52,406 nt of DNA from Actinomycetes bacterium. Its GTDB lineage: Bacteria > Actinomycetota > Thermoleophilia > Gaiellales > F1-60-MAGs149. Made by a program: the position numbers and the translations under genes. The notes under the pieces were generated by a model. It saw nothing but the letters and a program-made list of their open reading frames with translations. It was not told the DNA's origin and ran no database searches. Shown here piece by piece: positions 1 through 43,241 of the stretch. The stretch's first letter is position 1, and the number at the start of each line of letters is the position of its first letter. Where the stretch lies: NCBI GenBank assembly GCA_025360225.1, contig JANYCN010000055.1:1-52406 (forward strand), given 5' to 3'.

Positions 1-141
1 GCCCACGATCCGGCACGCAGAGCGGGCCGGGGCGCGGTCGCCGGAGCTGAGCGGCGTAGCCACCCGACGGGTGGCAGAGCCGACAAGCGCAGGACGATCC
101 AGGCAGTCGGATGACCACGCCATCTCACAATCAGACCACTA
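1..141. repeat. Right part of a CTAG-flanked inverted-repeat element (copy A)
   Basis: This is the right-hand part of the element seen complete at 3551-3801; the window edge cuts off its left side. Bases 1-140 align almost base for base with 3664-3801. The copy ends with the family's right terminal repeat (about 111-140, reading ATGACCACGCC...CAGACCAC). A CTAG tetramer at 142-145 follows directly and contains the TAG stop codon of the minus-strand DAHP synthase gene. No coding potential is evident. It looks like a non-autonomous, MITE-like element rather than a terminator, because it recurs in several contexts. Confidence 0.75.
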
Positions 142-1503
142 CTAGCGCCGCAAGAGCTCTGCCACGCGGAACGCCAGGTCGATCGACTGGCGGCCGTTCA
201 GGCGTGGGTCGAGCACCGTCTCGTAGCGGTCGGCGAGGTGGTGGTCCTCGATCTCCTCGGCGCCACCCAGGCACTCGGTGACGTCGTCGCCGGTCAGCTC
301 GACGTGGACGCCACCGGGCCACGTCCCCTCGGCGCGGTGCGCTGCGAAGAAGCCGACCAGCTCGCGCACGACCGCGTCGAAGTGCCGCGTCTTGTGGCCG
401 CCGGCCGACGTGAAGGTGTTTCCGTGCATCGGGTCGCAGCACCAGACCACAGGGTGGCCAGCATCGGTGACGGCGCGGATGATCGGTCGGAGCGTCGCCT
501 CGACGTGATCGGCGCCCATCCGCGCGATCAACGTCAAGCGTCCGGCCACGCGGTCGGGGTTGAGCGTCTCACAGAGCGCGACCGCCTCGTCGACGGTGAT
601 GCTCGGGCCGATCTTGACGCCGAGCGGGTTGCCGACGCCACGGAGGAACTCGACGTGCGCGCCGTCGAGCTGTCGCGTACGTTCGCCGATCCACAGCATG
701 TGCGCCGAGCAGTCGTACCACTCGCCGGTCGTCGAGTCGACCCGGGTGAGCGCTTCCTCGAAGCCGAGGAGCAGCGCCTCGTGGCTCGTGTAGAGGTCGA
801 CCTGGTGGAGCTGTGCGGTGTTCTCAAGGTCGATGCCACACGCCCGCATGAACGTCAGCGCCCGCTCGATCTCGCTCGCGAGGGCCTCGTAGCGCTGGCC
901 TTCGCGGCTCGTCGCGACGAACTCCTGTGTCCAGGCATGCACGCGCGTGAGGTCGGCGAAGCCGCCCTTCGTGAACGCGCGGAGCAGGTTCAGGGTCGAC
1001 GACGACTGGTGGTAAGCCTGAACGAGGCGACGTGGGTCGGGCGTACGAGCGGCAACGGTCGGGTCGGCGCCGTTGACGATGTGGCCGCGGAACGCGGGTA
1101 GGTCGATCTCGCCAACGCGCTCGTACGGCGAGGAGCGCGGCTTTGCGAACTGTCCGGCGATCCGTCCGACCTTGATCGCCGGCACGCCGGAGGAGTACGT
1201 GAGGATCACGGCCATCTGCAGGATCACCCGCAGCTGCTCGCGGATCTTCGGCGCCGAGAAGCTATCGAACGACTCAGCACAATCACCGGCCTGGAGCAGG
1301 AACGCCTTACCCTGTGCCGCGAGGCCGAGCGCTGACGTCAGCGCTCGCGCCTCGCCGGCGAAGACGAGCGGTGGGTACGAGGCCAGCTCCGCGAGCGCGC
1401 CGGCGAGAGCGTCGTCGTCGGGCCAGTCGGGCTGCTGCGCGGCCGGGCGGTCGCGCCAGGTTCGCGGTGTCCAGGAGTCGAGCACGCTCTCATGGTGCCG
1501 CAT
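142..1503 (-). CDS. aroG: Class II 3-deoxy-7-phosphoheptulonate (DAHP) synthase
   Basis: Condenses phosphoenolpyruvate and erythrose 4-phosphate into DAHP, the first step of the shikimate pathway; cytosolic. The 453-residue protein has the class II (plant/mycobacterial type) features: an early W-T-P-x-T-W segment, the metal-binding Cys75 in QAGDCAES, the KVGRIAGQFAKPRS motif, the stretch around STTGEWYDCSAHMLW, and the C-terminal VWCCDPMHGNT and HVELTGDDVTECLGG blocks. Length is normal for the class. The ATG at 1503 lies 5 bases after the CoA-transferase stop; a longer reading to 1788 would add an arginine-rich tail overlapping that gene and is not credible. It is the last gene of a three-gene minus-strand run, and its TAG stop abuts a repeat element. 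Confidence 0.95.
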   Translation of the reverse strand: MRHHESVLDSWTPRTWRDRPAAQQPDWPDDDALAGALAELASYPPLVFAGEARALTSALGLAAQGKAFLLQAGDCAESFDSFSAPKIREQLRVILQMAVILTYSSGVPAIKVGRIAGQFAKPRSSPYERVGEIDLPAFRGHIVNGADPTVAARTPDPRRLVQAYHQSSSTLNLLRAFTKGGFADLTRVHAWTQEFVATSREGQRYEALASEIERALTFMRACGIDLENTAQLHQVDLYTSHEALLLGFEEALTRVDSTTGEWYDCSAHMLWIGERTRQLDGAHVEFLRGVGNPLGVKIGPSITVDEAVALCETLNPDRVAGRLTLIARMGADHVEATLRPIIRAVTDAGHPVVWCCDPMHGNTFTSAGGHKTRHFDAVVRELVGFFAAHRAEGTWPGGVHVELTGDDVTECLGGAEEIEDHHLADRYETVLDPRLNGRQSIDLAFRVAELLRR

Positions 1504-3157: not shown

Positions 3158-3523
3158 ATGCCGGAAGTCCACCAAGCCCTCGGCGGGCTCGTGATCCTTC
3201 TCAACCTCGTCGCCGGGCTCTGGGCGCTGCTCGTCTACCGCGGCAGGCGCGAACCGACGAAGCCGTTTCAGCAGGTGCTCGCGCTCTCCCACACGGTGAT
3301 CGTTGGGCAGGCGACGATCGGCCTGCTGCTGCTGATGTCCCAGCATCACGCTCCGGCGTCGCTGCACTACATCTACGGGCTCGCGCCCGCCGGAGCGGTG
3401 CTGTTCGCCTACTCCGCGCGCACCGAGGAGCCGCGGCGGAACATCCTCGTGTTCGCGATCATCGCCCTCGTCGCGACGGCGTTCGCGGCCCGCGCCTTCA
3501 TGACGGGCATCGGCTGGGGCTGA
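3158..3523 (+). CDS. Small membrane protein, function unknown
   Basis: A 121-residue protein with about four hydrophobic segments: residues about 8-27 (GGLVILLNLVAGLWALLVY), 40-60 (ending IGLLLLM), 68-83 (IYGLAPAGAVLFAYSA) and 92-112 (ILVFAIIALVATAFAARAF). Short charged loops lie between them. I chose the ATG at 3158 because the methionine immediately precedes the first helix; the frame stays open upstream but runs antisense to the peroxiredoxin gene. The histidines in the second and third segments (SHTVIV, QHH, LHY) are notable, but I recognise no heme or metal motif. I cannot assign a family. Confidence 0.7.
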   Translation: MPEVHQALGGLVILLNLVAGLWALLVYRGRREPTKPFQQVLALSHTVIVGQATIGLLLLMSQHHAPASLHYIYGLAPAGAVLFAYSARTEEPRRNILVFAIIALVATAFAARAFMTGIGWG

Positions 3524-3546
3524 CGCCTGCCTCCACAGCGACGAGC

Positions 3547-3804
3547 TCTCGTGGTGTGATTGTCAGATGGCATCGTCATTGGGTGTCTGGAGCGAGCGGG
3601 AGCGTTGCGCATCGCACAGGGCTTGCCGGGGCAAGCGCAAGCGGCGCGCGGCGTTCCCGCGAAGCCCACGATCCGGCACGCTGAGCGGGCCGGGGCAGGT
3701 CGCCGGAGCTGGGCGACGTAGCCACCCGCAGGGTGGCGTAGCCGGCCAGCGCAGGACGATCGAGGCGCGCGAATGACCACGCCATTTCACAATCAGACCG
3801 CTAG
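3547..3804. repeat. Complete MITE-like element with 30-bp inverted ends (copy B)
   Basis: The left end (3551-3580, GTGGTGTGATTGTCAGATGG...) and the reverse complement of the right end (3772-3801) match at 24 of 30 positions. The right end is followed by CTAG (3801-3804); the left border reads CTCG, one change from CTAG. The roughly 190-base interior is GC-rich, has several small palindromes, and shares long blocks with copies at 1-141 and 41557-41710, including an identical 21-mer (3584-3604 versus 41673-41693 reversed). Frames inside are arginine-rich noise, and there is no transposase. This fits a non-autonomous element mobilised in trans. Confidence 0.8.
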
Positions 3805-3966
3805 AGCCCGTGAACAGCGGTCGGCGTTGGCGCGTGGGTGGGAACGGGCGGGGGTGGCGGGCGTGGTGCAGGGCTTGCTGGAACCGGTTCAAACGGCGCG
3901 CGTCGCTCCAGCGTAGGACGATCCGGGCAGCCGGATCACCACGCCATCTTGCAATCGGACCGCTAG
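3805..3966. repeat. Diverged adjacent element with the same right end (copy C)
   Basis: Placed head-to-tail behind copy B. The right end (3934-3963, GATCACCACGCCATCTTGCA...) is the family terminal repeat with a few changes and is followed by CTAG (3963-3966). The interior is different: a G-rich stretch, then GCAGGGCTTGC, which recurs in the other copies, then GTAGGACGATC, close to GCAGGACGATC in copies A and B. An 18-mer near its left side (3819-3836, GGTCGGCGTTGGCGCGTG) recurs at 36726-36743. The left inverted end is not clear, so it may be truncated or fused to copy B. With copy B it fills the 452-base gap between two genes. Confidence 0.6.
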
Positions 3967-3975
3967 GCTCTGTCC

Positions 3976-4332
3976 ATGAGGAACGACACAGCACGAAACG
4001 TCGCGATCGTCGTTGGACTCGTCGTCGTGTTCGCCGTCCCGAGCTCCGGCGCGCTCGCCGGCACGATCTCGCTGCTGATCCGCGCGCTCATGCTCGCCGC
4101 GTTCCTGTACTTCGCCTACACCATGTGGCGCGCGAACCAGGGGGCGATCGCGAACCTTCCCGACCGTGACCGGTCGATCGTCTACGCCGCGCTCGCCCTT
4201 CTCGTGGTGCTGCTCGTCGCGTGGCTGCTGCTGCCGCTCTCCGGCGTTCGGATGCTGATCGTTCTTGGCGGGATCGGAGGTCTCGGATACCTCGTCTGGC
4301 GAACGCTGCAGGGCGGCCGAGGCTACTATTGA
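3976..4332 (+). CDS. Small integral membrane protein, function unknown
   Basis: A 118-residue, very hydrophobic protein. Hydrophobic segments lie at about residues 8-30 (VAIVVGLVVVFAVPSSG...), 31-50 (LLIRALMLAAFLYFAYTMW), 68-88 (IVYAALALLVVLLVAWLLL) and 91-107 (VRMLIVLGGIGGLGYLVW), with a polar loop (RANQGAIANLPDRDRS) between the second and third. The C-terminus ends in GGRGYY. The ATG follows the end of repeat copy C by 9 bases, so its original upstream region may have been displaced. The next gene begins 4 bases after its stop, suggesting co-transcription. No family recognised. Confidence 0.7.
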   Translation: MRNDTARNVAIVVGLVVVFAVPSSGALAGTISLLIRALMLAAFLYFAYTMWRANQGAIANLPDRDRSIVYAALALLVVLLVAWLLLPLSGVRMLIVLGGIGGLGYLVWRTLQGGRGYY

Positions 4333-20633: not shown

Positions 20634-20706
20634 GCGGATGTAGCTCAGCTGGTAGAGCGACGGCTTCCCAAGCCGTAGGTCGCGGGTTCGAACCCCGTCG
20701 TCCGCT
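20634..20706 (+). tRNA. tRNA-Gly (anticodon CCC)
   Basis: A full cloverleaf folds by eye. The acceptor stem is GCGGATG (20634-20640) with CGTCCGC (20699-20705), including one G-U pair. The D-arm contains AGCTCAGCTGGTAGAGC. The anticodon stem ACGGC/GCCGT encloses the loop TTCCCAA with anticodon CCC, and the T-arm GCGGG-TTCGAAC-CCCGT is canonical. The discriminator base is T, as is usual for bacterial tRNA-Gly. The 3' CCA is not encoded (TCA follows). It decodes GGG. Confidence 0.97.
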
Positions 20707-24062: not shown

Positions 24063-24098
24063 CGCCCAAGTGCACGGAGCGTTCCGTGCACTTGGGCG
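24063..24098. promoter_or_regulatory. Perfect 16-bp inverted repeat between divergent genes
   Basis: CGCCCAAGTGCACGGA (24063-24078) and its exact reverse complement (24083-24098) are separated by GCGT. It lies in the 172-base gap between the divergent phosphoribosyltransferase and large secreted-protein genes, 27 bases from the former's start. No T-run follows on either strand, so an ordinary intrinsic terminator is unlikely. It could be an operator for a dimeric regulator or a 5'-leader hairpin. No known riboswitch was recognised in the rest of the gap. Confidence 0.6.
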
Positions 24099-24207
24099 AC
24101 GTCCCCCATCCGGTGGATCGAGGACCGACCGTGCGTGGGCGATGGAGACGGTGGAGCCGCACCCGCGGTGTCTGAACCCGTACCGCACGGAACTGAATGG
24201 AGTCGTC

Positions 24208-27195
24208 TTGACGTATCGGAGTGGCATCGCACGAAGGTCCATCGGAGCGCTCGTCGCGCTCGCCGTCCTTGGCGTTGTCTCCTCGGCTCAGGCCGCTGTC
24301 ACCGTCACCTCCTTCGCGCCCGCGGGCGCTCTCGCCTCGGCCTCGGTGACGATCACCGGTACGGGCTTCACGGCTGGTACGAACACCGTGACCTTCAACG
24401 GTGTTGCGGCGGCAGCTCCGACGAGCGTCACGGCGACCTCGATGGTTGCCGTCGTACCGGCCGCTGCCACGTCCGGCCCGATCAAGGTCGTCAACACGCT
24501 GAATGGAACCGGCAGCTCTGCGTCGGACTTCTTCGTCTATCCGGCCGGCTTCACGAGCGCGACGGTCGACGCTCCAGCGCACCTGACGCTCGGCACGCCA
24601 GCGACGCTCTCGATCGCCACCGGGCACATGACGGTGCAGACCTTCACGACGACGAGCGCCGCGCAGCGCGTGTTCCTCAAGTGGACCGGGTCGACGATCA
24701 GCAACTGGAGCCTGATCCTGCGCGACCCGACCGGCAACGGCCTCGTGGCCGCCTCCAGCGGCACCGGCACCGACTGGATCGACACGATCGCCCTTGGCGC
24801 CGTCGGCACGTACGCGTTGCAGATCACACCGTCTAACCCGTTCAGTGGCTCGCTGTCGCTAACGGTCTCGTCACCGCCGGCTGACCTCTCCGGAGCGATG
24901 ACGCTAGGCACCGCGAAGGCGTCGACGATCAGCACGGCCGGTCAGAACGCCCTGTACACGTTCACCGGGACGTACGGACATCGGGCGTTCATCGACTTCA
25001 CCGGGTCGACGATCGTCGGCGGAACGGTCTCCTTGCTCGACCCGTCGGGCGTCACGATCAACTCGACGCCGCTCCTGAAGGGCGAGGTCGTGCTCGACAC
25101 GACGCTGCTGTACGGCACGCCGACGGGCGGCACCGGCACCTTCCAGGTCCTGATCGACCCGGCCGGCTCGAACACCGGCGTCGTCAACGCCACCGTGTAT
25201 GACGTCCCGGCCGATCTGACGCCGGCAGCACCGCTCTCGTTGCCCGCTACCGTGTCGACGACGATCACGACGCCGGGACAGAACGCGACGATCCCGTTCC
25301 CGATCATCGCCGGCCACCAGGTCTCGATCTCGATCTCGAACACCGGCTTGATGGTCGGAGCGCTGACGATCTTCAAGGCGGACGGCGCCACACCGCTCAC
25401 CACTGCGACGACCATCCGCACGGCGACCGGCCTGATCGACTCGACTGCGATTCCCATGGGATCGACGGGCCCCTTCTTTCTCAGGTGGGATCCGGTCGGC
25501 GCTTCGACCGGCATCGCGAGCTTCACGTTCAACGACTTCAGCGACGTCGCGAGCTCGCTCACGCTCGGCGCAACGGCGCCGGCGAGCACCGCCGTCACCA
25601 ACGTGTCGACGACGATCCCCGGGCAGAACATCTACCTGACCGTCCCCGGCGCGATCAACGACCGGCTGAGCATCAAGATCACTGGCCTCTCCGGCATCGC
25701 GGGTGGGAAGATCCAGCTCCTCGATGGCGCCAACGCGGTTGTCGGGCAGGCCGTGCTGAGCGCGACCGGGTTCCTCGGGGCGTTGAAGGTGACGACCGCC
25801 GGGCCGTACCGGTTCCTCCTCGACCCGTCGGGGCAGAGCATCGGCACGGTGAGCTACCAGGTGTTCCGCGTCTCCGCTGACCTCGTCGTCGCTGTGAGCC
25901 CGGCGACGGGGCCGGGTGGCCTTGCCGCAACCACGGCGCTCGAGCCAGGCCAGATCGCGACCTTCACGATGACGCCGAGCGCGACCGGCACCATCGCCTT
26001 CTACATCGACGGCGCGCCCGTCACGAAGGGCGGCACCGCGACGCTTCGCGACGCCAGCGAGGCGGTCATCGGCACCCCGTTCACCCTGCTCGCGACGGGA
26101 ACGTGGGCGGAGGGCTTCGCCGTCACCGCCGGAACGCCGTACCACCTTGTCGTCGACCCGGGCGGCGCAAACGTTGGCGCCGTCTCTCTGCGTGCCTATC
26201 TCTCCGTGGCGAGCGCCAGCGGTGGCGTGATCGCCCTCGGCGGCTCTGCGATGTCTGCGACGACGACACAGCGCGGCCAGAACGCGACCTTCACGTTCAC
26301 CGGCACGGCCGGCCACGGCGTCTTCATCAGCATGGCACCGTCGACCGGTGTCGTTGGTGGCCTGCTGAAGCTCTACGACGTGACCGGGACGACGTTGATC
26401 GCCAGCGCGAAGATCGGCTCAGCCGGCGCGTTCATCGACGCGACCACCCTTCCCGGCACGAGCGGGTCAGCGACGGTGTACACGGTGGTCGTTGATCCGA
26501 TCGGGATCCAGACCGGTACCGTGGTCGTCTCCGCCTACGACGTCGTGGGCGCGGTCCCCGTCCCGCTCGGGACGGCCGGCGTCGGTGTGATGGTGTCGAT
26601 CACCTCGATCGGTCAGGTCGGCTTGCTCACGATGAGCGGCATCCCCGCCGGTCAGAAGATCGCGCTGAAGCTGTCGAACCCGGCCTTCTCGGGCAAGCTG
26701 ACGATCACCGACGCCAACAACGCCGCCGTCGTCAATGCCCGTGCGTTCGGCGTTGCGGGGCTGTTCGTCGACACGACGGTCTTCGCGAACGGTGGCACGT
26801 ACACCGTCAAGATCGACCCGACAGCGACGGGACTCGGCACCGCGACGCTGCAGGCCTGGGCCGTCGCAGCACCGTTCGCCACGACGATCGTCGTCGGCGG
26901 CGCCTCCGTCTCGGTCTCTGCGTCGCCGGGCCAGAACGGCACGGTCAGCTTCGATGCCTCGTCGCTGCAGCAGACCGTCCACCTGCAGTTCTCCGGTGTG
27001 ACGATGGGTCTCACCGCCGGGTCTGGCGTGAAGATCACGATCGCGACCCCGAGCGGCACCCAGCTGATCGTGCCGCACAGCATCGGCACGGCAGGCGGCT
27101 CGATGACCGTCGTGCTACCGGCGCTCGGCACGTACGTGATGACGGTCGACCCGCAGTCCGACGCGACCGGCAACCTCGTCGTCCGCGCGTACTAG
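24208..27195 (+). CDS. Large secreted IPT/TIG protein with about eight beta-rich repeats
   Basis: A 995-residue exported protein. The start is a TTG at 24208 with GGAG six bases upstream, giving a clean signal peptide (RRSIGALVALAVLGVVSSAQ, cut after A). Upstream in-frame codons would add a non-signal-like tail. Residues about 30-110 are an IPT/TIG module (VTSFAPAGALASASVTITGT, GTNTVTFNGVAAAAP). The rest is about eight degenerate units of roughly 110 residues, each with a 'GQNATxTFTGTAGH' core, a 'GGxxxLxDxxG' turn and a 'YxVxIDPxGxxTGTVxxxxYDV' end, similar in style to pre-peptidase C-terminal domains. Thr/Ser/Ala/Gly-rich, no cysteine in the repeats, no sorting signal or enzyme domain. Its TAG stop is shared with a repeat element. 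Confidence 0.85.
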   Translation: MTYRSGIARRSIGALVALAVLGVVSSAQAAVTVTSFAPAGALASASVTITGTGFTAGTNTVTFNGVAAAAPTSVTATSMVAVVPAAATSGPIKVVNTLNGTGSSASDFFVYPAGFTSATVDAPAHLTLGTPATLSIATGHMTVQTFTTTSAAQRVFLKWTGSTISNWSLILRDPTGNGLVAASSGTGTDWIDTIALGAVGTYALQITPSNPFSGSLSLTVSSPPADLSGAMTLGTAKASTISTAGQNALYTFTGTYGHRAFIDFTGSTIVGGTVSLLDPSGVTINSTPLLKGEVVLDTTLLYGTPTGGTGTFQVLIDPAGSNTGVVNATVYDVPADLTPAAPLSLPATVSTTITTPGQNATIPFPIIAGHQVSISISNTGLMVGALTIFKADGATPLTTATTIRTATGLIDSTAIPMGSTGPFFLRWDPVGASTGIASFTFNDFSDVASSLTLGATAPASTAVTNVSTTIPGQNIYLTVPGAINDRLSIKITGLSGIAGGKIQLLDGANAVVGQAVLSATGFLGALKVTTAGPYRFLLDPSGQSIGTVSYQVFRVSADLVVAVSPATGPGGLAATTALEPGQIATFTMTPSATGTIAFYIDGAPVTKGGTATLRDASEAVIGTPFTLLATGTWAEGFAVTAGTPYHLVVDPGGANVGAVSLRAYLSVASASGGVIALGGSAMSATTTQRGQNATFTFTGTAGHGVFISMAPSTGVVGGLLKLYDVTGTTLIASAKIGSAGAFIDATTLPGTSGSATVYTVVVDPIGIQTGTVVVSAYDVVGAVPVPLGTAGVGVMVSITSIGQVGLLTMSGIPAGQKIALKLSNPAFSGKLTITDANNAAVVNARAFGVAGLFVDTTVFANGGTYTVKIDPTATGLGTATLQAWAVAAPFATTIVVGGASVSVSASPGQNGTVSFDASSLQQTVHLQFSGVTMGLTAGSGVKITIATPSGTQLIVPHSIGTAGGSMTVVLPALGTYVMTVDPQSDATGNLVVRAY

Positions 27196-27265
27196 CGGTC
27201 TGATTGCGAGATGGCGTGGTCATTCGGCTGCCCATGACCATGCCATCTCGCGATCACACCGCTGG
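27192..27265. repeat. Minimal palindromic element made of two abutting terminal repeats (copy D)
   Basis: The left arm (27195-27224, GCGGTCTGATTGCGAGATGG...) and the reverse complement of the right arm (27233-27262) match at 26 of 30 positions, with only 8 bases between. The arms are the same terminal sequence that bounds copy B. The left border is CTAG (27192-27195), containing the TAG stop of the large secreted protein; the right border is CTGG. The transcript could fold into a 30-bp hairpin, so it may also act as a terminator or 3'-end stabiliser for that gene. Confidence 0.85.
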
Positions 27266-27563: not shown

Positions 27564-27890
27564 GTGTCCGTGATCACCGACGAGCAGGTCCGCGAGCAGA
27601 TCCTCCAGCACATCAACGGCAACCGCGTTGCCCTCTTCATGAAGGGCATGCCCGAGTCGCCGCGCTGTGGCTTCTCCGCCCGTGTCGTGGAGCGGATGAA
27701 CGCGCTCGGGGAGGAGTACGCCGCCGTCGACGTGCTCGTCGACCCACGCATCCGGCAGGTGCTCGCGGCGCACTCCAACTGGCCGACGATCCCCCAGCTG
27801 TTCGTCGACGGGGAGCTGGTTGGTGGCTGCGACATCGTCGAGGAGCTCGCCGAGTCAGGCGAGCTCGCGACGATCGTTCGCGGCGGCTAG
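27564..27890 (+). CDS. grxD: Monothiol glutaredoxin, Grx4/GrxD type
   Basis: A 108-residue single-domain CGFS glutaredoxin. The active site is PESPRCGFSARVV with Cys35; VALFMKGMP precedes it, and WPTIPQLFVDGELVGGCDIV carries the cis-Pro and the GG-C-D glutathione-binding motif. Such proteins ligate a bridging [2Fe-2S] cluster with BolA and take part in Fe-S trafficking rather than disulfide reduction. The GTG at 27564 has a GGAG site upstream. The TAG stop lies in the CTAG that borders repeat element E. Confidence 0.95.
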   Translation: MSVITDEQVREQILQHINGNRVALFMKGMPESPRCGFSARVVERMNALGEEYAAVDVLVDPRIRQVLAAHSNWPTIPQLFVDGELVGGCDIVEELAESGELATIVRGG

Positions 27891-28084
27891 TGCCGCGTCT
27901 GGAGATTGCCGTGCTGATCGCGGGCGCGCTGGATAGCACACCCGCTCGCACGCGCGAGGAGGCGTTCGCCTTGACGCGCTACGTGGCCGAGCTGGAGCGC
28001 GGCTCGCCCCGACTTGTCGGGCAAGGTGCCAGCCGCAGCTCCGCAGCCCGAATTCTGCCCCGAAGCTCCGCGACGGGACACTAG
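27887..28084. repeat. 198-bp CTAG-to-CTAG element (copy E)
   Basis: CTAG occurs at both ends (27887-27890 and 28081-28084). Reading inward, the ends are CTAGTGCCGCGTC and, reversed, CTAGTGTCCCGTC, which agree at 11 of 13 positions. A 70-base internal block (27915-27984) matches reversed 41650-41581 without gaps at 59 of 70 positions by my count. The left CTAG holds the grxD stop codon, and the right end runs into the 5' end of the hydrolase frame. The 64-codon frame inside is not convincing as a gene. Confidence 0.72.
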
Positions 28085-40689: not shown

Positions 40690-41560
40690 CTGCCGAACGT
40701 CCGGGTGCTGTCCATGGTGTCGCTTGCCAACGACGCGGCGAGTGAGGTGCCGGTCCTGCCGCTCTTCCTGACCGTGACGTTCGGTGCGCCGGTCGTCGTG
40801 CTCGGCGTCGTTGAGGGGCTCTCCGAGGCCGTCGCGGTGGTGTTTCGGGGCGTCTTCGGGCCGATCTCCGACAGGCGAGGGGCGCGCGGCGTCCGTTCAT
40901 CGCGAGCCGCTACGTTGCCTCCGTTGCGGGTCGGGTGCTCGTTGCGGTGGCGCCGACGTGGGGTTCGTGCTCGTCGCGCGGGCTGTCGATCGGTTTGGAA
41001 AGGCCGTGCGTTCCTCTCCTCGCGACGCCCTGATCCGCGACTCATCGCCGGCGGCGTTCGTCGGGTCGAGCTTCGGCTTTCACCCGGCGATGGACTCGCT
41101 CGGGGGGTGATCGGGCCGACGGTTCGCTCTGGTGCTGATCGCTGGTGGAGATTGGCGCCTACATCGGCTTCAACGTCGAGTTCAGCGCCCTCGTGTGGCC
41201 GCTTGGCGCCCTCTCAGACCACGTCGGACGCCGCGGGCTCCTGATCGGTGGGATGCTCGTGTTCGCTGCGGTCTACGGCGGTCTCGCCGTGGCGGATGCC
41301 GCGTGGGAGGCGTACCCGCTGCTGGCCACCTACGGTCTGTACCTTGCCGCGACCGACGGCGTCGGCAAGGCGTTCGTCGCCGACCACGCTCCGGCGGCCC
41401 TCTCGGGCACCGCCGATAGCGCGTTCTCGCTCCTCGCTGGCGGCTGTGCGCTGATCGCCTCGACCGTCGCCGGGGTCGTCTACGAGCGGGTTGGGCACGG
41501 CGTGCCGTTCGCGATCGGCGCTGCCTCCGCGCGCTTGCCGGGGCCGTCGCGTTGCGGCGG
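40690..41560 (+). pseudogene. Decayed MFS transporter gene
   Basis: Recognisable pieces of one major facilitator protein are spread over several frames in the right order: SLANDAASEVPVLPLFLTV and VFRGVFGPISDRRGAR, then RPFIASRYVASVAGRVLVAV in another frame, FVLVARAVDRFGKAVRSSPR in a third, and IGFNVEFSALVWPLGALSDH...LLIGGMLVFAAVYGGLAVAD further on. I count at least four frameshifts between about 40885 and 41150 and one more near 41541, and the middle helices appear to be missing. The 3' end runs into a repeat element. The neighbouring genes are intact, which argues against simple sequencing error. Confidence 0.85.
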
Positions 41561-41710
41561 GAACGTCGCGCGCCGCTTGCACTTAGCGTGTCAAGGCCTT
41601 CGCCTTGACACGCGTGCGAGCGGGCGTGCTATCCAGCACGCCCGCGATCAGCAAGCCCTGCGCGACGCGCCACGCTCCCGCTCGCTCCAGACAACACAAA
41701 GCACCACTAG
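41557..41710. repeat. Mosaic repeat element at the end of the broken MFS gene (copy F)
   Basis: In reverse orientation this copy starts CTAGTGGTG (CTAG at 41707-41710), contains an exact 21-base match to copy B (41673-41693 versus 3584-3604) and a 23 of 24 match (41557-41580 versus 3637-3660). Between these lies a 70-base block (41581-41650) that copy B lacks but copy E has. That block contains two perfect hairpins: GCGGGCGTGCT (41620-41630) with its complement (41635-41645), and GTGTCAAGGC (41588-41597) with its complement (41602-41611). No second CTAG border is found on the MFS side, so this end may be truncated. Confidence 0.75.
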
Positions 41711-41741
41711 CGGCCGGATTGGTCATCTGACCGGGCAGACG

Positions 41742-43241
41742 ATGCGCGTCTACCGCGGCACGCCGCGCAGGCGCCGGTTCCTGCGTCGGCTTCTCCTTGC
41801 GCTTGCTGCGCTCTTCCTCGTCGTCGCCGTCTCCTTTGCCTTCGCGGTCTGGAAGCTCCACCAGGGGCTCGAGGAGGTGCAGGCAGCGAACACGCCGGCC
41901 GATCGCGCCGTGGTGGAGGAGACCGCTGGCGGGGCGCTCGCGGCGTCCTCGCCGATCACCTTCGCGATCTTCGGCGTCGACCGGCGGAAGGGCGATACCG
42001 CACCGCGCTCGGACACGACGATCCTCGTGCGACTCGACCCGCGGCGGCACACGCTGAGCCAGCTCGCGCTGACGCGGGACTGGGCGGTGCCGATCCCCGG
42101 GCACGGCAACGGGATCCTCACCTGGGCGTACCACTTCGGCGGCGCGGCTCTGGCGCTTGAGACGATTCGCGCCCAGACCGGGATTCGGCCGAACTTCGCC
42201 GTTGAGGTCGATTTCGACAGCTTCCGGCGCACCGTCGACGCCTTCGACGGTGCCTACATGGAGATCGACCGACGCTACTACAACCACAACACGGGCGGCG
42301 CGACCAACTACACCGATATCGACCTGCAGCCCGGCTACCAGCACCTGCGGGGCGCGGCGGCGCTCACGTTCGTTCGTTTCCGTCACAGCGATGATGACCC
42401 TGTGCGGATCGCTCGCCAGCAGCTCTTCGTCGCGGCCTTCAAGCGACGGCTCGACCCGATCACGACCTCCACGCACCTCTACGAGCTCCTCGGAATCGCA
42501 ACGAGCTCGCTGAAGCTGCTCGGCCGGCACAAGGCGAGCGAGGTGGAGATCCTCCGCTGGATCGAGCTCGCCCGGTCGATCCCGCGCCAGAACGCGATCT
42601 CCGTTCGCTGTGACGTGATCCCATACCCGAAGAACCACAGCTGGTTCTCGATCACGCCGAGCGCGTTGGCAACGTGTATCCACGCGTTCCTCCAGCCGGA
42701 CACCACGGCCGCGACCCGTGCCTCGGCTGACGTTGCGCGGCCAGCGAGGCCCGGTTCGCCCTCGACACCGATCCCGCCGTCGCAGACGATCGTGACCGAA
42801 CCGGGCCGTGATCTCGGTCGCTACCAGGCTACGGCGCGCGCCGCGCACCTGCGCCTCTACCTGCCGTCGCGGCTGCCCGTTGGGGCGTTCACGCGCGATC
42901 CGCAGTTCCGTCAGAGCGCCGATCCGTTCCGGGTCTACCGCGTCGATGGGCATCGCGCCGTTCACGTCACCTACTCCTATCCGGCGGCGATCTTCGGCAA
43001 CGCGGCGTTCGGGTTTCAGGCGATCGCCTGGAGCGCGCCGCCGATCCTTGACGCCCCGACGGCCTCGCGCACGTTCGCCGGGCGTCGCTACGATCTCTAC
43101 CTGGACGGGGCGCGGATCACAAGGATCGCCTGGCACGATGGCGGGGTCAGCTACTGGGTTTCGAATACCCTGCTGTTGGCGCTCTCGAACGAGACGATGT
43201 GGTCGGTGGCAACGAGCTTCCGACCGGTACCGAAGGAGTGA
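41742..43241 (+). CDS. LytR-CpsA-Psr (LCP) family glycopolymer ligase
   Basis: Attaches undecaprenyl-linked glycopolymers to peptidoglycan outside the cell. The 499-residue protein has a basic N-terminus, one membrane helix (LLLALAALFLVVAVSFAFAV), and an LCP domain (about residues 70-270): FAIFGVDRRKGDTAPRSDTT, SQLALTRDWAVPIPG (catalytic Arg region), AYHFGGAALALETIRAQTGI, VEVDFDSFRRTVDAFDGAYM and LRGAAALTFVRFRHSDDDPV, then IARQQLF. A further 170-residue C-terminal region is not a standard LytR_C domain. ATG 41742 is preceded by the repeat element; the frame is open upstream only through the broken MFS gene. UDP-glucose dehydrogenase follows after 7 bases. Confidence 0.9.
   Translation: MRVYRGTPRRRRFLRRLLLALAALFLVVAVSFAFAVWKLHQGLEEVQAANTPADRAVVEETAGGALAASSPITFAIFGVDRRKGDTAPRSDTTILVRLDPRRHTLSQLALTRDWAVPIPGHGNGILTWAYHFGGAALALETIRAQTGIRPNFAVEVDFDSFRRTVDAFDGAYMEIDRRYYNHNTGGATNYTDIDLQPGYQHLRGAAALTFVRFRHSDDDPVRIARQQLFVAAFKRRLDPITTSTHLYELLGIATSSLKLLGRHKASEVEILRWIELARSIPRQNAISVRCDVIPYPKNHSWFSITPSALATCIHAFLQPDTTAATRASADVARPARPGSPSTPIPPSQTIVTEPGRDLGRYQATARAAHLRLYLPSRLPVGAFTRDPQFRQSADPFRVYRVDGHRAVHVTYSYPAAIFGNAAFGFQAIAWSAPPILDAPTASRTFAGRRYDLYLDGARITRIAWHDGGVSYWVSNTLLLALSNETMWSVATSFRPVPKE

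Follow-up and report, generated by a model that had tools for sequence, protein, structure and literature searches.

The bcr1 repeats of the Bacillus cereus group have a folded structure. They are lineage-restricted repeats of high copy number, 100–400 bp in length, with features of mobile DNA, and are associated with TTTAT and a possibly site-specific mechanism (PMC6542083). The RUP elements of Streptococcus pneumoniae are short repeats without genes, present in about a hundred copies, that have inverted ends and a TA target; their transposase is proposed to be provided in trans by an IS630-family insertion sequence (IS) (IS630-Spn1; PMC2229807). The Correia or NEMIS elements of Neisseria also have inverted ends and intergenic copies, fall into two length classes due to an internal insert, and have been proposed to produce folding transcripts (PMC2229807). 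Among autonomous elements, the IS630/Tc1-mariner element ISY100 duplicates a TA target (PMC2170065), and IS630 prefers the TA within CTAG (Tenzen and Ohtsubo 1991, cited in PMC2170065). Elements of the IS701 family duplicate exactly 4 bp (PMC2266710).

The repeat family described here was analysed in a window of 52,406 nucleotides, which is the whole of contig C20 of the home genome G000 (3.24 Mb, 89 contigs, 97% complete). The comparison set is composed of 128 further genomes of the same order (129 with G000). Genome G003 belongs to the same family as G000 and to a sister genus, and G072 and G073 belong to genus g16 of another family. The statistics of ends and borders are taken from 97 genome pieces of G000, in which 152 ends and 43 complete pairs of ends were located. 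The features of the window, together with two IS insertions elsewhere in G000, are listed in Table 1.

Table 1. Coordinates of element copies and their parts (window positions unless a contig is given; CM, covariance model)
Feature	Coordinates	Strand	Evidence
Copy B, complete element, short class	3548..3804	+ (strand of modelled fold)	CM E 1e-60, model 1-258; 67 BLASTN matches in genome
Copy B, left inverted end	3551..3580	+	24/30 match to right end
Copy B, right inverted end with CTAG border 3801-3804	3772..3804	-	0 mismatches to 32-base end pattern
Copy B, folded core (approximate limits)	3584..3764	+	RNA fold z -7.1; covariation
Copy B, core arms (approximate)	long ~3590-3666; second ~3666-3698; third ~3699-3764		
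Right part of a copy	1..145	+	Right end 111-141, border CTACTAG; CM E 3e-28
Diverged, shortened but complete copy	3814..3966	+	Right border CTAG; CM E 8e-12 over model 1-258
Minimal copy, two ends back to back	27192..27265	.	End pattern and CM
CTAG-bounded mosaic, core segment joined to IS630-type right end 28047-28084	27887..28084	+	80% over 98 nt to long-class core
Core arm (reverse strand) joined to IS701-type end 41692-41710, CTAG at 41707	41557..41710	-	97.8% over 137 nt to long-class core
IS5-type insertions in element copies	L029 1-443 (G000:C26); L079 (G000:C84, first 130 bases)		

Copies in the window and in the genome

Copy B encodes no gene. The agreement between its inverted ends, on which the original prediction of a MITE-like family had drawn, is reached by only 4 of 200,000 random position pairs at the same spacing. 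CTAG had been noted at its right border, which is correct; the left border reads CTC|G. The recurrence of the ends at 1–141 and 27192–27265 is upheld. The sequence of the first of these copies (1–142) is 97.9% identical over 141 nt to another complete copy and is ended by the start of the contig, not by biology. A third recurrence, at 3934–3966, is real but had been drawn too short, as it is part of the diverged complete copy that begins at 3814. The two related mosaics of the original prediction do contain core sequence, joined to ends that differ from those of copy B, and the second of them (41557–41710) has lost its far end. Around this second mosaic (41145–41742), the open frame of the C-terminus of an MFS-like transporter continues in frame through the element fragment, toward the start of a LytR-CpsA-Psr-like gene (both proteins named by inspection). 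The insertion may have replaced the end of the transporter.

The family is repeated in G000 far beyond chance: 140 ends match the 32-mer and 207 ends match the 27-mer pattern, each within three mismatches, and the reversed control of the latter gives 0 matches. The further copies on which the original prediction depended are therefore abundant. The 27-base pattern has 0 matches in the 128 other genomes of the order. The 43 complete copies measure 68–374 bp between their ends and contain no gene, and terminal inverted repeats are exhibited by the 152 aligned ends as by copy B. There are two main length classes, of approximately 252 and 312 bp between the ends, and shorter forms down to 68 bp. 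Since the ten copies of the 312-bp class are 86–97% identical to one another, a recent origin is not provable for any copy. Of the 178 contig ends in the G000 assembly, at least 43 (among them the left end of the window) fall within copies, which makes the element a main cause of the assembly breaks.

The copy at 1480–1780 of L005 (G000:C50) is flanked on both sides by a repeated stretch, GTTGGACGGCTGACGATCTAG, and its right end is replaced at CACGCTCG, which looks like a template switch. One copy, in L013 (G000:C8), carries tandem repeats of a third-arm module of 20 bp, GGCGCAGCCGGCCGCAGGGT.

The distribution of the family is patchy, with relatives identified by the covariance model (based on copies from both G000 and G003) in 4 of the 129 genomes. 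The exact end pattern has no match among 84,980 species genomes, a set that possibly does not include the home genome. A degenerate core pattern matched three of these assemblies only, all Actinomycetota MAGs: Bin_62_12 (VFJZ01; G003), CH-Jul18-163 (CANFDS01; G073) and GL140_2_metabat_386 (JANXXF01; G072). The Rfam 15 covariance search of the window identified only a tRNA at 20634–20706, and nothing at 3400–4000 up to an E value of 5. Within the searches made, only four genomes contain the family and Rfam does not, and a non-exhaustive literature search provided no earlier description of the element.

CTAG borders and location at gene ends

The bases outside the repeat are strongly conserved among the 152 ends, with C at 95%, T at 93% and A at 78% (or C at 19%), and the first base of the element is an invariant G (152/152). 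One position further out from the CTA, G is preferred (49%). The borders have the form CTA|G...C|TAG, which fits insertion at the TA of CTAG. CTA is present on both sides in 20 of the 43 pairs; among the others, CTC on a single side is the most frequent arrangement (8 pairs). This CTC|G variant replaces CTA|G at 19% of ends, often on one side only and with ends that are otherwise perfect, as at 3548–3550 of the window, and it is explained by neither TA nor CTAG duplication. Because CTAG is palindromic, a duplicated TA is indistinguishable from a CTAG that belongs to the end. Abutting units have one CTAG in common (L019, C73 and L229; in G003, an element copy and an IS630 in L237), which is expected from insertion at a CTAG border.

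CTAG is depleted eight-fold in the window (18 sites observed, 143 expected from composition), and 7 of the 18 sites are element borders. With CTAG this scarce, and with 35 of the 44 coding frames that reach a border stopping at the border's own TAG (frames judged by the heuristic of codon-position G+C), the insertions sit at gene ends. Within the window, this is seen at 142–145, 27192 and 27887, where the border doubles as the TAG stop of an adjoining ORF. The TAG at 142–145, read on the minus strand, is the stop of the adjacent minus-strand ORF, and the CTAG of the minimal copy supplies the TAG stop of the upstream ORF 24070–27195. A similar heuristic places the insertion sites between 21 convergent, 16 co-directional and 2 divergent gene pairs. 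A circular chromosome has as many convergent as divergent junctions, and 21:2 is therefore a strong bias. A CTAG-specific element in a CTAG-poor genome would be steered to stop codons.

The folded core and its ends

The original prediction missed the folded core. The RNA of copy B is predicted to fold at −153 kcal/mol, compared to −117 kcal/mol for shuffled sequences, with a stem formed by the ends, one long arm and two shorter arms. In the 312-bp class, about 60 additional bp extend the long arm at its tip; one or more arms of the core are missing from many short forms. Full-length relatives are identified by the covariance model in G003, where they have CTAG ends, and in G072 and G073. The branched fold covaries between genera: in a structure-guided alignment, which leans towards the structure, 93.1% of cells pair and double changes are present in 35 of the 64 pairs. 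Covariation scores 0.343 in this alignment, compared to 0.162 for shuffles and 0.04–0.08 for slid partners. In a model-free alignment, pairing is kept despite changes on both sides in 21 of the 64 pairs. Between lineages, the core is 60–70% identical and the ends 39–54%.

Relative to shuffles of the same strand, the plus strand folds more deeply than the minus strand in three of three lineages (−23 vs −12, −30 vs −21 and −23 vs −14 kcal/mol), and co-directional insertions exhibit no strand preference (7:8). An excess of G-U over A-C pairs (104 vs 7) was considered as proof of a selected RNA strand and was dropped, since the shared pairs are without a clear bias when both strands are used for the prediction (9:13 and 14:4); most of the excess stems from pair prediction on the plus strand. 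Of the strand evidence, the difference in folding energy alone is retained. Covariation can also be mimicked by template-switch correction of palindromes. Selection on the modelled fold is considered likely; given these limits regarding strand, palindrome and G-U pairs, an RNA function is only a candidate.

The ends that accompany the core are of several kinds. Copies in G003 start with CTAGTGGTTCGACACGG, and copies in G072 and G073 start with GAGCTCG or GAACTCA after TNA. Exact 3-bp TNA direct repeats are present in 6 of the 11 copies of the latter family that have both flanks (TAA in L167, L168, L172 and L204; TTA in L171; TGA in L222). A fragment of an IS5-type transposase in G073 (L202) begins with this same end after TTA (p = 0.0005 vs shuffles), and the IS5-type IS of G000 has a similar end. 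The short copy in L204, located beside an IS5-type transposase of G072, was considered as the end of that IS and rejected; it is an insertion, since it has two inverted ends with TAA next to each. The IS5-type IS of G000 (PF01609, PF13586), with ends TTA|GAGTCCGTTTCAGTAGG, is itself inserted at the long-arm tip within two element copies.

The window mosaics are cores on other ends, one of IS630 type and one of IS701 type. The first end (28047–28084) matches the right end of a G003 IS630 at 32 of 38 positions. This IS630 is intact (L237 1031–2341, G003:C34), with a length of 1.17 kb and a frame of 384 codons, and directly adjoins a copy of the element at its CTAG border, the two sharing one CTAG. 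The second end (41692–41710) follows a pattern common to the IS701-like ISs of G000, and IS701-like ISs with ends at CTAG occur in both G000 and G003. In L231, a CTAG-bounded unit has one IS701-like end and one main end, and in L230 an IS701-like end is fused to the core. As the core is joined to several kinds of IS ends, core and ends evolve partly independently. In a stronger reading, which is tentative and rather improbable, selection acts on one strand of a portable structured core that unrelated transposase families have mobilised in different lineages (CTAG-type ends in G000 and G003, IS5-type ends in G072 and G073, IS630-type and IS701-type ends in mosaics); the core would in effect be a conserved hitch-hiking RNA or single-strand DNA structure that changes its ends.

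Proposed mobilisation and comparison with known elements

The IS630 transposase domain (PF13358) was not found in the G000 assembly, which is 97% complete and fragmented at the element repeats; three are found in G003. A transposase gene bounded by the main ends, which the original prediction had suggested as a check, was looked for and not found. The main ends of G000 match none of the IS630 ends found (p = 0.24–0.78), and they are no more similar to the IS701 ends than expected by chance (p = 0.28–0.49). Comparison of the G003 main end with one IS630 end gave an uncorrected p of 0.011. A PF01609 search of G000 identified three IS fragments, none with main ends, and the main ends of G000 match no IS found in the analysis. 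Ends in common with autonomous ISs are exhibited by the G073 copies (IS5-type) and the two window mosaics (IS630 and IS701), and by none of the main ends.

A MITE-like family is supported by the number of copies, their inverted ends and CTAG borders, the lack of genes within them and the single CTAG found where two copies abut. It is probably a gene-less, non-autonomous family that is moved in trans by a CTAG-specific DDE transposase. This transposase would act on the inverted ends of about 28 bp and insert the element at CTAG, most simply with duplication of TA to give C-TA-element-TA-G. The invariant first G of the element would then restore the TAG stop codon after the duplication. Insertion at a CTAG stop would spare the protein and, CTAG being scarce, copies would collect at the 3' ends of genes. 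The copies presumably reached each site through past mobility, and the folded core may aid mobility or persistence.

There is about an even chance that the transposase is of the IS630 type, and another CTAG-specific transposase is a possible, less probable candidate. IS630 is favoured because of the CTAG-bounded IS630 in G003, the presence of its end in the window and the known preference for CTAG; the invariance of the first G is also easier to reconcile with a duplication of 2 bp than with one of 4 bp. The IS630/Tc1-type derivative of the original prediction is supported by its borders and by the G003 element, and is weakened by the missing IS630 domain and unmatched main ends in G000, the IS701-type ends at CTAG and the IS5-type ends in G072 and G073. 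If an IS701-family transposase drove the main family, which seems unlikely, CTAG would be a 4-bp duplication and the element would start with TGG. The CTAG ends of the IS701-like ISs in both genomes, the hybrid units (L231, L230 and 41557–41710) and the exact 4-bp duplication of this IS family are consistent with such a driver, but the resemblance of the main ends to IS701 ends is at chance level, and the first G, invariant in 152 ends, would be expected to vary as the outer C does (5%) if it belonged to a duplicated target. For the main family, the best single model, and a plausible one, is mobilisation in trans by an IS630-type transposase.

Three further explanations were considered. The core could be selected as an RNA of the element or of the host, for example as an mRNA 3'-end structure, with the transposon ends serving only as a vehicle. 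The covariation, the higher identity of the core between lineages and the deeper folding of the plus strand in all three lineages agree with this reading, but it is made doubtful by the lack of strand preference relative to co-directional genes, the loss of whole arms from many copies, the G-U excess largely disappearing in the both-strands control, the palindrome correction that can mimic covariation and the lack of an Rfam match. A REPIN-like element moved by a Y1 (RAYT) transposase would account for high-copy inverted repeats at gene ends and for minimal back-to-back units such as 27192–27265, but is very improbable given that single ends are not themselves hairpins (by inspection) and that copies of the G072/G073 family are flanked by direct repeats of 3 bp and carry IS ends of the DDE type. 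Equally remote are fixed structural repeats, immobile, vertically inherited and amplified by recombination: the 86–97% identity of copies, none provably recent, would fit, but the sharp CTAG borders at unrelated flanks, the target duplications of the G072/G073 family and the patchy presence do not.

The analysis adds an abundant short-element family in uncultured Actinomycetota. A CTAG-specific element that is led to TAG stop codons in a CTAG-poor genome would have a simple route to a safe insertion niche. The core is kept across genera and families while the end type changes, which makes two ideas testable: that MITE interiors are under selection, for mobility or as RNA, and that they can switch transposase partners.

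The family fits the MITE definition and appears to work like RUP or Correia elements, with a putative partner for its main ends and a duplication that is unprovable in a palindromic target. It resembles RUP in its short gene-less repeats, copy number, inverted ends, TA target and proposed IS630-type mobilisation in trans. RUP ends match a resident IS630, whereas the main ends of G000 match no resident IS, and no structured core is reported for RUP, whereas the G000 core is branched and kept between genera. The two length classes, inverted ends, intergenic copies and proposed folding are shared with the Correia elements, from which the family differs in sequence and size, in its CTAG target at stop codons and in having several IS-end types on one core. 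It is lineage-restricted and mobile in character like bcr1, but has inverted ends and CTAG in place of TTTAT. The TA target relates it to IS630/Tc1-mariner elements; unlike them, the element is without a transposase and its assembly without an IS630 transposase, and the main ends are only candidate IS630 ends. The IS701-like ISs of G000 at CTAG have ends in common with the mosaic copies, but the main ends have no match among them. The ends and 3-bp duplication of the G072/G073 family resemble the IS5 family (IS1031 and IS427 groups), with a target type other than that of the window copies. The unusual trait of the family is its branched core, which is kept across genera on different ends.
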